From assembly GCF_021556615.1 (NCBI RefSeq), contig NZ_JAKGGD010000002.1, positions 62,001 to 126,000 on the forward strand: a DNA stretch of 64,000 nt, in the 5' to 3' direction. Shown here one piece after another: positions 2,992 through 7,878 of the stretch. The number at the start of each line of letters is the position of its first letter. Within the stretch, counting starts at the first letter, position 1. The notes below the pieces were generated by a model that had not been told where the DNA came from, ran no database searches, and saw only the letters and a program-made list of their open reading frames with translations. The DNA is from Paracoccus salsus (lineage in GTDB: Bacteria > Pseudomonadota > Alphaproteobacteria > Rhodobacterales > Rhodobacteraceae). The position numbers and the translations under genes are program-made.

Positions 2992-3560
2992 TGCAAGTCG
3001 AAGATGGCATGCAACTGGCCTACTACATCCTTCTGCTCATCGTGATCGGTGGGGCGATGCTGTTCGAATTGTCGGGCCGGGGCAGTCAGGCGGTGCGCCA
3101 GCTGGTGCTGTGGGTCGTGATCTTCGCCGGCGCGATCTTCGCGGCGAACTGGTGGATCGAGGGCGATGCTCCGCGCCAGCAGGTACTGGAGAACGGGCGG
3201 ATCGAGATCCCGATCGGCAGGAACGGACATTTCCACCTCACCGCGCAGTTGAACGGCGTCGATGTCCGGTTCATCGTCGATACCGGCGCCTCGACCATCG
3301 CACTTGGCCCCGCGGATGCCCGCCGGATCGGCATCGACCCCGACGATCTGGCCTATGTCGGCACCGCGATGACCGCCAATGGCCGCGTTCAGACCGCGCC
3401 GGTCACCATCGATGAATTCGCTATCGGAGACATTCTGGACCGCAATGTCCGCGCCTGGGTCATCGGCGGCGATCTGGACGGCTCTCTTCTGGGCATGTCG
3501 TATCTCAGGACCTTCGCCCGGGTCAGCTTCGAGGACGATCTGCTGATCCTCGAACGCTGA
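2991..3560 (+). CDS. Membrane-anchored retropepsin-like aspartic protease (TIGR02281 type)
   Basis: The 189-residue product has two N-terminal hydrophobic segments (about 8-27 and 37-53) and then a single-domain aspartic protease fold. The catalytic motif DTGAST (Asp97) and the later hydrophobic-hydrophobic-Gly motif SLLGMSYL fit the clan AA, TIGR02281 group common in alphaproteobacteria. Only one DTG is present, so activity would require a dimer, as in retropepsins. Targets are unknown. The start at 2991 overlaps the marC stop. An alternative ATG at 3009 would remove six residues, and neither has a strong ribosome binding site. Confidence 0.85.
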   Translation: MQVEDGMQLAYYILLLIVIGGAMLFELSGRGSQAVRQLVLWVVIFAGAIFAANWWIEGDAPRQQVLENGRIEIPIGRNGHFHLTAQLNGVDVRFIVDTGASTIALGPADARRIGIDPDDLAYVGTAMTANGRVQTAPVTIDEFAIGDILDRNVRAWVIGGDLDGSLLGMSYLRTFARVSFEDDLLILER

Positions 3561-3694
3561 TTTGCAACCACCGCGCCGGGACTGCACTTTCGTCATTCCA
3601 TCGCTCGGCGCCAGGATGCGGGGCCGACAGGCCGCGCCGGTCGGGGTCGCGGGTCGGCGGCGAAATCGTGCTGCTGGCAACCGGCTGAGCCCTG

Positions 3695-4319
3695 TCAGTC
3701 CAGCAGCATCGCGGGCGTCGAACCGCCGGTCTCACGATGCCGGACAGCCCGCCATGCGCCATTCTGGCGTTGCAGGGTCAGGAAGTTGCGTTCGGCCACG
3801 TATCGCTGGCGTTGGCGCGGAAGCGGGCCGATGCGGATGGGTTGACCGGACAACGGCGCCTCGCCCATCACCCGACGCCGGGTCCCTTCCGAACGCAGGT
3901 CAGGCGCTAAGTTCGCAAGCCCGGGCAGGTCCCGCCGCCAACCAGGATTGCCGCCCTGAAGCAGCAGGCCAAAGGGCGCAAGCCGGTGCTCTTCGGCCAG
4001 CCGCGCCCACATCAGGTTGCGTGCGCTGCCATCGCGCTGCAGATCGCAATCAAGGCGGGTCACGCGACCGGATGAACGACGTTTTCCAGTCGGTAGCCGT
4101 CGTCCTCCTGGCTCAGGCAGAACTCGAGCCTGCAGGCGGCCAGGCCCCCGACCACCGCGATCCGCCGAATCTCGTCGTGCGTTCGACCGCTTCGACAGGA
4201 CCAGGGCAGCCATCCTCCAGAGGCCGGAGAAGGGCCACCGCCAAACGCGGGCGGCGGTCGTCATGGCCGTGCAAGTGCAGGATCGGCCCGGCGCCGAGTG
4301 TCTGGATCGGAACGTCCAT
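3695..4319 (-). pseudogene. Remnant of a PhoD-like alkaline phosphatase (DUF7800-type N-domain)
   Basis: Pieces of one protein lie in three frames. From the ATG at 4319, frame one gives LGAGPILHLHGHDD...LAVALLRPLEDG. After about 4175 the homology shifts to a frame ending RLENVVHPVA with a stop at 4060-4062. The next frame opens with a GTG at 4063 and gives SARNLMWARLAEEHRLAPFG then LLLQGGN, and ends with an ERNFLTL block. These blocks match, in order, the start and end of alphaproteobacterial PhoD-family phosphodiesterases as I remember them. The metal-binding GDQxY region and most of the catalytic domain are missing. About 205 codons remain, against roughly 500 in intact relatives. The family call is from memory. 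Confidence 0.65.
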
Positions 4320-4389: not shown

Positions 4390-5868
4390 CTAACGTCGGC
4401 TGAGCCAGTCGCGCAACCCGCCCCAACCCCGAAACAAGCCCCGCTTTTCAATGGGTTCGAAAATCATCTCGGGACCTTCCGGATCAAGGATCTCGTTGTC
4501 CGCCAGCCATTCCTCGGCAGCGGCAAGCTCTGGCATTTGGTAGTCGGCCAAGGTCTTGCCCTGCCCGCTGGCCGCGCGCAACCGATCGATCGTCGCGATC
4601 AGGGACCCCGTCTGGCGCAGTGTCCCGGCGACCTCCTCCGCTTGAACGCCCAGATGCTCGGCCAACAGCCCGTTCCGGATGGTGGCGATGCCGTTCCGGA
4701 TCGTCTCGTTTCCCGCCTCGTCCGCGCTGACGACCACATCGCATTCGCTATCGAGGCGCATGGAGCGGTTGTTGAAGTTTGACGAACCGACGCGCAGGAT
4801 GCAGTCGTCCACGATCATGATCTTCGCATGGACGTAGATCTCGGCGCCGGCGTCGGTCAGCGGGTGCAGGAACCGCAGGCGATCGTGCCGGTCATGCTGG
4901 CGCAGCCCCTCGATCAGGCGCGCGCGCGCCGAATCCATCGCCGCGCTGCGCAGCCATCCCTCGGCGCTGACCGGATTGACGATGACGATTTCAGGACCGT
5001 CTGCCTCGAGCAACCGGCTGGCGATGGCCCGGGCGACATTCCGCGACGCGAAATACTGGCTTTCCGCATAGATCATCCGTTCTGCCCGCGCGATCAGGTC
5101 CAGATACATTGCCTCGACCTCGTGGACCGGTTCGCTGTCGGCCGTTTCGGGAAGGGTCCGCGCAATACCCAGCCGGACATCCTGGAAGGTCGCAGCCAGA
5201 TTCTCGGGCCAGCAGCCGTCCTGACAGGTCACGGGCTTCAGCGTCTCGCCGGTCGCGATGCACCACCGTTCACGCGCCAGGTCACCCATCGCCCGGGCGG
5301 CCGGGCCATCGAACGCGCTTGTCGCGTCGTGCCAGGGCGGGTGCGGCTTGCCATCGGGACCGACGCGCCGGGGATCGTCGTCCAGATGCGCGGGCCGATC
5401 CCAGCGCCCGGCCGTCATGTCGATGCCACCACAGAACGCGATACTGTCGTCGATCACGACGATCTTCTGATGATGCGAGCCACCCACCGGATGCTGGCTG
5501 TCAAGGCAGAGCGTAACGCGGGGATGCATCTTCCAGCGCAGAACCGTCAGCAGCGTCTTGCCGCGAAGCAGCGTCTTCAACGCGCCCGTGTCCCAGCGAA
5601 GAACCCGGATTTCCAGCGACGGCGTCCGGCGCGCCAGCCAGATGATGAAGTCGCCAAGCCGCGCCGGACCCTCGTCGACATTGCCGATCTCGATGCGGGC
5701 ATCGAAGTCCCAGCCGATCAGCATGATGCTGTGGCGGGCGGCGCGCATGGCCTGGCGGGCGGCGGCGAAATAGGCGTCGGCGTCCACGATCACGGTGAAG
5801 CGGCGGGCCTGTTCGACGCGCCAGCAATTATGCCCCGGCTGCAGCAGTTTTCCTGAATCGGCGGACAT
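4390..5868 (-). CDS. Phospholipase D-family protein
   Basis: The 492-residue product has two HxKxxxxD motifs: H133-x-K135-x4-D140 (HHQKIVVID) and H347-x-K349-x4-D354 (HAKIMIVD). Each is followed by the usual GG/GSSN-type block (FCGGID, RVGSSNFNNRS). This is the standard two-domain phospholipase D architecture, acting on phosphodiesters of lipids such as phosphatidylcholine or cardiolipin. There is no signal peptide or clear membrane segment, so location is uncertain. The start at 5868 has an AGGGAG ribosome binding site; upstream codons in frame do not look coding. It is followed on the same strand by the PhoD-like remnant. A phased GCAC repeat array lies 130-200 bases upstream. Confidence 0.9.
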   Translation of the reverse strand: MSADSGKLLQPGHNCWRVEQARRFTVIVDADAYFAAARQAMRAARHSIMLIGWDFDARIEIGNVDEGPARLGDFIIWLARRTPSLEIRVLRWDTGALKTLLRGKTLLTVLRWKMHPRVTLCLDSQHPVGGSHHQKIVVIDDSIAFCGGIDMTAGRWDRPAHLDDDPRRVGPDGKPHPPWHDATSAFDGPAARAMGDLARERWCIATGETLKPVTCQDGCWPENLAATFQDVRLGIARTLPETADSEPVHEVEAMYLDLIARAERMIYAESQYFASRNVARAIASRLLEADGPEIVIVNPVSAEGWLRSAAMDSARARLIEGLRQHDRHDRLRFLHPLTDAGAEIYVHAKIMIVDDCILRVGSSNFNNRSMRLDSECDVVVSADEAGNETIRNGIATIRNGLLAEHLGVQAEEVAGTLRQTGSLIATIDRLRAASGQGKTLADYQMPELAAAEEWLADNEILDPEGPEMIFEPIEKRGLFRGWGGLRDWLSRR

Positions 5869-6001
5869 GAAACTCCCTGACTTCGCTGCGTTTCCAGCGC
5901 TTCCGGCCGCGGCATGGCGCGTATCGCCAACCCGCAAGCCGCGCCATAAGTTCCGCGAATCCTGCCCGCGAAACCCGTCAGACAGAGGCCGCATTGGGGG
6001 G

Positions 6002-6061
6002 CGCACAACGCATGCACGGCGGGTGCACCGGGCGTGCACAGCCTGTACACCGACAACGCAC
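6002..6061. promoter_or_regulatory. Six GCAC repeats at exact 11-bp spacing
   Basis: GCAC occurs at 6003, 6014, 6025, 6036 and 6058, and ACAC fills the expected position at 6047. Each is preceded by C or T. The exact 11-bp period is one helical turn and is not a multiple of three, so coding does not explain it. Tandem 11-bp direct repeats are how OmpR/PhoB-family regulators bind DNA, though the GCAC core does not match the classical pho box. The array lies between the divergent phospholipase D and TPR genes. Confidence 0.7.
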
Positions 6062-6156
6062 GGTGGTGTTGCGCACGGTCGGCAGACGAGCCGGTTGATC
6101 GCGCGCGGCGCTGAGGGCAGTCTGGCGGACGGGGTCGGTGGTTCGGAGGTGCGCGG

Positions 6157-7878
6157 ATGAGCAATGCCGAGAAGGTCGCCGAACATGCAGCGGGCGGATG
6201 CGTCGGGGCACTGGCGTTGATGCTGGGAGATCCGACCGGCGGCACGGTTGCCGTCGCCGGGTCGCTTGCAGGGCTGGCGCTGCTGGCTCGCACGACATGG
6301 GGCCGCGAACGCGACGCCGTCGCCGCGCGGGCGGCCTTATCGGCGCGGGCGGCGGTCGCGGATTGCCGCGACTACGCGACAGCGGATCTGGGCCGCGTTG
6401 CGGTCCTGCTGAGCGAGGCCCAGATCGACCCGCTGACGCCCGAGGACCTGATCGCGGTCGTCCAGGGCAGCGAGACCTATCGCCTTGCAGCGCCGCTTGC
6501 GGGTGTCCTGCGTGCCCGCATCCGTTTCGACGGCGACAGCGCGGCGAATATCGCGTTGGTGCGGGTCGCGCTGGAATCGGCGATGTCTGCCTGCTGCGCC
6601 GACAGCACATTCAAGAACGACCTCCAAACCCTGCTGATGATGACGTCGGTCCGGCAGAACGATGCGGTGCTGGCGACCCTGACCGAAATGCGCGGCAGCC
6701 GCGAGGCCGCCGAACGCGAGTTGGGCCGCCGGGAAGGGCTTTTGATCGGGCTGGTTCGACCGATCGCGCAGGGCGTTGACGATTTCGATACGGCGATTCG
6801 CGAATTGGAGCGCGCCGTCGGAATCGCCGCCGATCTGGAGCGGCAGGCGATGATGCCGTCCAATCTGGGCGATCAGGTCAACGCCGTGCTGCGCCGGATG
6901 CAGGAGCAGAACCGGGCCGGCGATCTGGACGGGGCGGCGCAGACGGTGGATGACGCGCTTGGGGAACTGGAGGCGGAAAAGGCGCGGCTGCTGGATGCGG
7001 CGGTCGAACAGCAGATCCTGCGCCGCGATGCCGGGGCGGCGGCCACGCGGCTGTGGCAGCGGCGGCAGCTAGACCTGCCCGAGGGCGCCGACCGGTTCGA
7101 GGCGCTGCGCGGATTGCAGGATGAATGGTATGTTCGCGGCCGCGACAAGGGGCTGAATTTCGACCTGGAGGTCGCGATCAGGCTTGCCGGGATCAGCCGA
7201 AACGGCGCGCAGACCAGCGACCAGCGCGGAGCCGCGCTGAACGATCTGGGCAACGCGCTGCTTGCCATGGGCCGTCGCGAGACCGGCACCGACAGGCTGG
7301 AGGAAGCCGTAACCGCCTATCACGACGCGCTGCGGGAACGGACCCGCGCGCGGGTGCCGCTGGATTGGGCCATGACGCAGAACAATCTGGGCAACGCGCT
7401 GCGGACCCTCGGCGCGCGCGAGACCGGCACCGACCGGCTGGAAGAGGCCGTCGCCGCCTATCGCGACGCGCTGCGGGAATGGACCCGCGCGCGGGTGCCG
7501 CTGGACTGGGCCGCGACGCAGAACAATCTGGGCAACGCGCTGGCAACCCTCGGTGAGCGCGAGCCCGGCACTGACCGGCTGGAGGAGGCCGTCACCGCCT
7601 ATGGCGAGGCGCTGCGGGAACGGACCCGCGAGCGGGTGCCGCTGGATTGGGCCATGACGCAGAGCAATCTGGCCCTTCTCGAGGTGGCGTTCTTCGACAA
7701 GACCGGCGAGGCGTCGCGGCTGGAGGCGGCGGAGGGGTCTTGTCGCGCGGCGCTGGAGGTGTTCGAGGCGGCCGGGGCAAGCCATTATGTGGGCATGGTC
7801 CGGGAGGCACAGGCCGCGATCGCAGAGCGGCGCGGGCGGCCGGGCCAGGTCTCAGATCGGGATGGCGTGGGCGCCTAG
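6157..7878 (+). CDS. Tetratricopeptide-repeat protein with N-terminal helical region
   Basis: The 573-residue product starts at an ATG preceded by GGAGG. Residues 1-50 include a weakly hydrophobic stretch (GALALMLGDPTGGTVAVAGS) that might be a membrane segment. Residues 60-320 are helical and Ala/Glu-rich, without a domain I recognise. From about residue 360 come four tandem 47-residue TPR units of the NLGNALxxLGxRExGTDRLEEAV type, the class often seen in signalling NTPase and CHAT-type proteins. No enzymatic domain is visible, so it is probably a scaffold. Its 3' end overlaps the convergent hemerythrin gene by 27 bases. Confidence 0.75.
   Translation: MSNAEKVAEHAAGGCVGALALMLGDPTGGTVAVAGSLAGLALLARTTWGRERDAVAARAALSARAAVADCRDYATADLGRVAVLLSEAQIDPLTPEDLIAVVQGSETYRLAAPLAGVLRARIRFDGDSAANIALVRVALESAMSACCADSTFKNDLQTLLMMTSVRQNDAVLATLTEMRGSREAAERELGRREGLLIGLVRPIAQGVDDFDTAIRELERAVGIAADLERQAMMPSNLGDQVNAVLRRMQEQNRAGDLDGAAQTVDDALGELEAEKARLLDAAVEQQILRRDAGAAATRLWQRRQLDLPEGADRFEALRGLQDEWYVRGRDKGLNFDLEVAIRLAGISRNGAQTSDQRGAALNDLGNALLAMGRRETGTDRLEEAVTAYHDALRERTRARVPLDWAMTQNNLGNALRTLGARETGTDRLEEAVAAYRDALREWTRARVPLDWAATQNNLGNALATLGEREPGTDRLEEAVTAYGEALRERTRERVPLDWAMTQSNLALLEVAFFDKTGEASRLEAAEGSCRAALEVFEAAGASHYVGMVREAQAAIAERRGRPGQVSDRDGVGA
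7240..7700 (+). repeat. Four tandem 141-bp TPR-coding repeats
   Basis: The block beginning AACGATCTGG or AACAATCTGG recurs at 7240, 7381, 7522 and 7663 (AGCAATCTGG), exactly 141 bases apart. The units are nearly identical at the DNA level over long stretches, including RVPLDWA-coding sequence, suggesting recent duplication or ongoing homogenisation. The last unit diverges after about 40 bases. Confidence 0.85.

Follow-up and report, generated by a model that had tools for sequence, protein, structure and literature searches.

A dispersed family of 11-bp-phased CAC arrays in Paracoccus and a few related genera

What is the role of a row of six evenly spaced CAC boxes between two divergent genes of Paracoccus salsus? 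The boxes lie in a stretch of 64,000 nucleotides that we analysed as a whole (the window). A first-pass annotation had given their letters and positions, which are correct as read directly from the sequence. It had also proposed that they may control a phospholipase D (PLD) gene, a TPR gene, or both. The features of the locus are as follows; the array, its boxes, and the tail were read from the sequence, and boxes 5 and 6 were also judged from a profile and from comparison of orthologs.

4390-5868, minus strand: phospholipase D-family gene (open reading frame, start chosen by codon usage; PLDc_2 match, E 3.2e-15)
5988-6070, plus strand: whole element, variant B, ending CACCGACAACGCACGG (profile match)
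6003-6061, plus strand: array of six CAC boxes
6003-6006, plus strand: box 1, GCAC
6014-6017, plus strand: box 2, GCAC
6025-6028, plus strand: box 3, GCAC, inside the palindrome GTGCAC
6036-6039, plus strand: box 4, GCAC, inside GTGCAC
6047-6050, plus strand: box 5, ACAC, inside GTACAC, the most conserved box of the array family
6058-6061, plus strand: box 6, GCAC; its CAC is found in variant B, and its final C alone is invariant across both variants
6054-6073, plus strand: 3' tail CAACGCACGGTGGTGTTGCG, an imperfect inverted repeat (CAACGC/GTGTTG)
6157-7878, plus strand: TPR-like gene (DUF5388, E 1.1e-6; weak TPR matches; internal 141-bp tandem repeat)

On the plus strand, five boxes read GCAC and one reads ACAC, and the CAC triplets start at 6004, 6015, 6026, 6037, 6048, and 6059, each exactly 11 bp after the last. 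The array is non-coding and sits between divergent genes, as had been annotated: the best-supported starts of the two genes are separated by 288 bp (5869-6156), and the array is inside this space. Nor is its regularity a matter of chance. In 20,000 shuffles of the intergenic space that preserved dinucleotides, the longest run of CAC at 11-bp steps was 1 or 2 boxes in 99.6% of cases and was never more than 4, versus 6 observed. Elsewhere in the 64-kb window, no run of CAC with a period of 8 to 14 had more than 3 boxes. The 11-bp pattern is thus genuine.

The element extends past the stretch first annotated and takes in a less regular 3' tail (CACCGACAACGCACGGTG..GTTGCG). In a search over the window and the PLD loci, the whole element scored 71.9 bits (E 3.4e-21) against our profile (R1), which was built from sequence only, from 28 copies of which this is one, and whose E-values are rough.

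As to the neighboring genes, DUF5388 is the sole Pfam match of the TPR-like gene above the curated cut-off, and the 141-bp repeat within that gene (window positions 7235-7672) is in frame, with about three copies that are 87% alike. The PLD gene has a patchy distribution, with close relatives in scattered alphaproteobacteria (Sphingomonas, Belnapia, Aureimonas, and others). Among the best 80 PLD loci, two are from other Paracoccus.

A DNA search with the array found similar places in the same genome and in relatives. With the profile, we found 20 clear copies in the P. salsus genome, below which the scores fall sharply to noise. In a genome-wide search for the pattern itself, as the first-pass annotation had suggested, (TGCACN6)x3, allowing 2 mismatches at most, had 42 matches per strand, versus 0-1 for a reversed control pattern. 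The window copy belongs to a chromosomal family of about 20 elements; it is of variant B, and its divergent setting is unusual.

The family is widespread in the genus. In a scan that scored up to 35 candidates in each of 125 same-genus genomes, 61 had matches, 37 had at least 5 copies, and 64 had none; a fuller scan of one genome (G107) found 70 copies. Each element in Paracoccus has 4-6 boxes of the form GCACMG, which recur every 11 bp and so share one face of the helix. Across the family Rhodobacteraceae, 22 of 199 genomes had matches (including P. salsus itself), and a few other genera have shorter arrays, typically of four boxes. The genus g43 has 24 copies, of which 21 have at least four phased boxes and 20 have exactly four, and the hairpin flanks described below are absent. 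Among 385 genomes from the class, we found one weak match besides P. salsus itself, in another family. The phased array, rather than its flanks, appears to be the core that is common to different genera. We found no description of such a family in Paracoccus, Rhodobacter, or alphaproteobacteria in open-licence papers, among which an earlier description could be missed, so the dispersed array element is apparently undescribed so far.

Two variants occur in the genus. Variant A ends in TGTACACCGCTTGCGNRCGTTGCGCG, and 5' of this it has CCAGCAAATGCTGG, a hairpin with T's after it, and GCGCAACG...CGTTGCG, which are inverted repeats. Variant B ends in GTACACCGACAACGCACGGTG, and the variant-B tail of the window copy recurs in other copies in the same genome and in other species. 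In another locus of the P. salsus genome (L022), a type-B array adjoins a gene for 245 amino acids (positions 3181-3915) with unusual codon usage and a weak match to MUG113 (GIY-YIG-like) that is below the curated cut-off.

Which part of the element is conserved? In orthologous arrays from distant species (one pair per locus), the CAC triplets are 99.6% identical, versus 61% for the spacers and 50% for the downstream flank. Spacers in non-orthologous copies are 58% identical, which is barely lower than for orthologs. In a close pair of genomes (G119 and G096), whose arrays are clearly co-inherited, 6 of 270 CAC sites differ (2.2%), versus 43 of 648 spacer sites (6.6%; Fisher p 0.006) and 9-16% in the flanks. 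With the CAC nearly invariant and the spacers free to change, the conserved feature is CAC in an 11-bp register. Spacers are no more similar within one genome than between genomes, so the copies are not being homogenised, and we rejected gene conversion among them. Of the six CAC sites that distinguish G119 from G096, four show a parallel change: in each of four different G096 arrays (L200, L203, L205, and L206), the second box has the same A-to-G change.

We then asked where the arrays are. For 15 of the 20 copies in P. salsus, counterparts with the same flanking DNA were found in G119, G096, or G023. The copy in bioD is shared, by gene, with other species, which brings the orthologous positions to 16 of 20. 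Some positions, including that of the window copy, had no ortholog in those three genomes. In several species the bioD array is in frame inside the coding sequence, where array-free genomes have shorter loops. (Across the bioD loci of many genomes of the genus, L139-L168, the array is read as a variable loop of BioD in several species; in G024, the stretch in bioD (L158) resembles a decayed array.)

Using gene contexts from our home-made gene caller, which relies on codon usage, we compared distinct array positions across the genus to background gaps. Arrays prefer convergent spaces and avoid divergent ones: of the 41 array positions, 20 are convergent and 4 divergent, while among the 76 background gaps the corresponding numbers are 12 (p 2e-4) and 29 (p 0.001). 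At 31 of the 41 positions, the 3' side of the array faces the 3' end of a gene, mostly at a distance of 5-60 bp. The window copy, with its divergent setting, is an exception to this preference. In genus g43, arrays are at convergent pairs in 4 of 24 cases, which is not a concentration. Given g43 and the divergent window copy, a role at gene ends may be specific to the genus Paracoccus.

On the larger scale, we found neither regular spacing nor regional density bias of the arrays on four chromosomes, and a strand pattern was seen in just one of the four (G146) and is weak (p 0.04). We rejected replication-linked placement on these grounds. The lack of a pattern in spacing or position is neutral on a role in chromosome structure: it neither supports nor excludes one.

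Genomes without arrays are also informative. In a tree from two linked genes, bioF and bioD, array-rich and array-free genomes are interleaved. For example, G016 (18 copies) is the sister of G064 (0 copies), with support of 0.996, and G005 and G081 (15 copies) are beside G098 (0 copies). For nine array positions of G016, we located the neighboring genes in G064 and G093. Neither genome has an intact array at these positions, and several of the spaces are shorter. Eroded remnants can, however, be recognized in G093, which has the four best profile matches at these positions, all in the expected orientation: at pepA/holC (18.1 bits), at a TM2 gene (13.1 bits), at gltD (7.5 bits), and at cobQ/ispH (7.4 bits). 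We found no clear remnant in G064 or in two stretches from G098, and several of the G093 positions were likewise clean absences.

The simplest reading of these genomes is that the arrays are maintained by something trans-acting and would decay once it is lost; the interleaving of array-rich and array-free genomes would imply a cognate binding protein. We infer repeated loss of the arrays from this pattern, rather than from a reconstruction of their history. Independent insertion as the sole source of the differences is weakened by the long retention of arrays and by the remnants in G093. Given the clean absences in G064 and G098, some positions may have a history of insertion or of deletion.

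What, then, are the arrays for? In the reading that was first proposed, the array is an operator of the OmpR/PhoB type for one or both of the PLD and TPR genes, and dimers bound head-to-tail on the 11-bp repeats would recruit or block RNA polymerase at the two divergent promoters. The PHO box does consist of 11-nt direct repeats on which protein subunits bind in tandem, head-to-tail, and the number of units varies in Streptomyces (PMC4415409). CAC arrays have a similar step and register, and the window copy is between divergent genes. But an 11-nt step does not by itself define an OmpR/PhoB operator, and unlike those operators, CAC arrays have a GCACMG core in 4-6 units and are found at the 3' ends of genes, or inside bioD in several species, instead of at promoters. 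The 20 copies in P. salsus are beside unrelated genes, and, as shown above, arrays avoid divergent spaces. The first-pass annotation had named absence of the pattern in relatives as a refuting result, and two further Paracoccus loci with a relative of the PLD gene (L059 and L078) indeed have no array beside it, with the caveat that the TPR neighbor is unconfirmed there. We consider an operator for these genes very unlikely. (The arrays could nevertheless be bound by an OmpR-type protein and yet not serve as operators.) The settings of the arrays also bear on a quite different reading, in which the array is transcribed into a 3' UTR and GUGCAC hairpins terminate transcription or protect the end of the mRNA. 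This would fit with the nearby 3' ends of genes, with the self-complementarity of the GTGCAC units, and with the additional hairpin of variant A and the T's after it. It does not fit with arrays that are divergent, within genes, or on the same strand as their neighbors, nor with the lack of a run of U after the array. More directly, pairing between neighboring units shows no covariation: no pairs changed on both sides, and 72.3% of cells were paired, which is no more than in shuffles. CAC is nearly fixed and its GTG partner varies, so the pairs are broken in many copies. Rfam had three sub-threshold matches, none of them over the array, and no family above its gathering score. We rejected hairpins between neighboring units for the lack of covariation, and an RNA element of any such kind seems rather unlikely.

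In a further reading, the arrays have no function for the host at all and are mobile repeats, akin to REP/BIME elements or MITEs, that were spread by a transposase and kept at gene ends where they are harmless. REP and BIME elements are dispersed and intergenic, and convergent gene pairs and gene ends are frequent locations for them (PMC1525189). CAC arrays are also dispersed, mostly intergenic, and often at the 3' ends of genes; variant A has both the CCAGCAAATGCTGG hairpin and the inverted repeats; and positions without a known ortholog, such as the window's, imply that new copies may arise. However, the REP unit is a short palindrome, while the core of a CAC array is a series of direct, helically phased boxes, in which the conserved part of the unit is CAC on one strand and the GTG half varies. 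A search for the Y1_Tnp (RAYT-type) transposase family found no member in P. salsus, nor in 22 of the 26 genomes tested, most of which have arrays, and we therefore rejected a REP/RAYT origin. Also, arrays are retained at orthologous positions over long times with CAC constrained and spacers free, and other genera have the array without the hairpin flanks. We consider a mobile repeat without a host function to be unlikely.

Our preferred explanation, which we rate as a little better than an even bet, is that the arrays are platforms for a putative head-to-tail DNA-binding protein that is dispensable, has been lost repeatedly, and would act at gene ends. Three features, namely the 11-bp register, the restriction of CAC to one strand, and the freedom of the spacers to change, point to a protein that binds head-to-tail along a single face of the DNA. 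This part of the original interpretation holds up, along with the array being non-coding and not due to chance, and the PHO box has the same step (PMC4415409); the control of the PLD and TPR genes does not. A putative sequence-specific protein would line up on the array as an ordered oligomer. In g43, the constant four boxes would fit with four subunits and suggest that the number of subunits is fixed. The putative binder would be dispensable and lost repeatedly, with the arrays decaying afterwards.

What the bound arrays would do is less certain. The settings of the arrays in Paracoccus point to gene ends, where bound arrays might be roadblocks to transcription or insulators between convergent genes. 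Alternatively, they could be topological or nucleoid anchors at these sites. They would probably not be promoter switches for the PLD or TPR gene. From the gene contexts, we favor a role of the roadblock, insulator, or anchor kind at the ends of genes. A more complete proposal is tentative and less likely than not: that this is an undescribed chromosome-wide system of Rhodobacteraceae in which a dispensable putative protein coats the 20-70 phased CAC arrays near gene ends, thereby insulating adjacent transcription units or anchoring the nucleoid, and that loss of the protein leads to loss of the arrays.

Other systems share some of these features. Sites such as matS (bound by MatP) and those of Noc and SlmA number in the tens over one chromosome and serve a trans-acting protein. 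CAC arrays, with 20-70 copies, are similar in number, but each is a tandem set of phased boxes, not a single palindrome, and on the four chromosomes they have no regional enrichment or consistent strand bias. Another such system is parC, the centromere of type II plasmid partition systems, in which tandem iterons of about one helical turn each bind one ParR dimer and form a helical superstructure (PMC5016525). CAC arrays are also tandem direct repeats of about one turn. Unlike parC, they are scattered over the chromosome as 20-70 sites with 4-6 boxes each, and we did not see a par operon among the called neighbors of the copies in P. salsus.

The distribution of the arrays is a natural experiment: 37 genomes in the genus have at least 5 copies, 64 have none, and there are sister pairs that differ. 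Comparing gene content across these genomes should allow the partner protein to be found. A partner that does work at the ends of genes would represent a type of insulator or roadblock that is unfamiliar in bacteria. Even if its function is modest, the element accounts for a recurrent pattern that would otherwise be mistaken for a promoter operator, as in the first-pass annotation.

We also considered a phage origin for the array. Viral contigs contain 74 stretches that match (TGCACN6)x4, but control patterns matched 25 and 41 stretches, and many of the matches to (TGCACN6)x4 are near-perfect tandem repeats, so there is no specific viral link. A pattern that included the family's own tail had zero matches in the viral contigs. 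As a separate observation, one viral contig (L302, IMGVR_UViG_3300024179_000008) has GAATTGCTGGGTTTTT followed by a four-box TGCAC array that is near to variant A; this stretch is possibly flanking DNA from the host.
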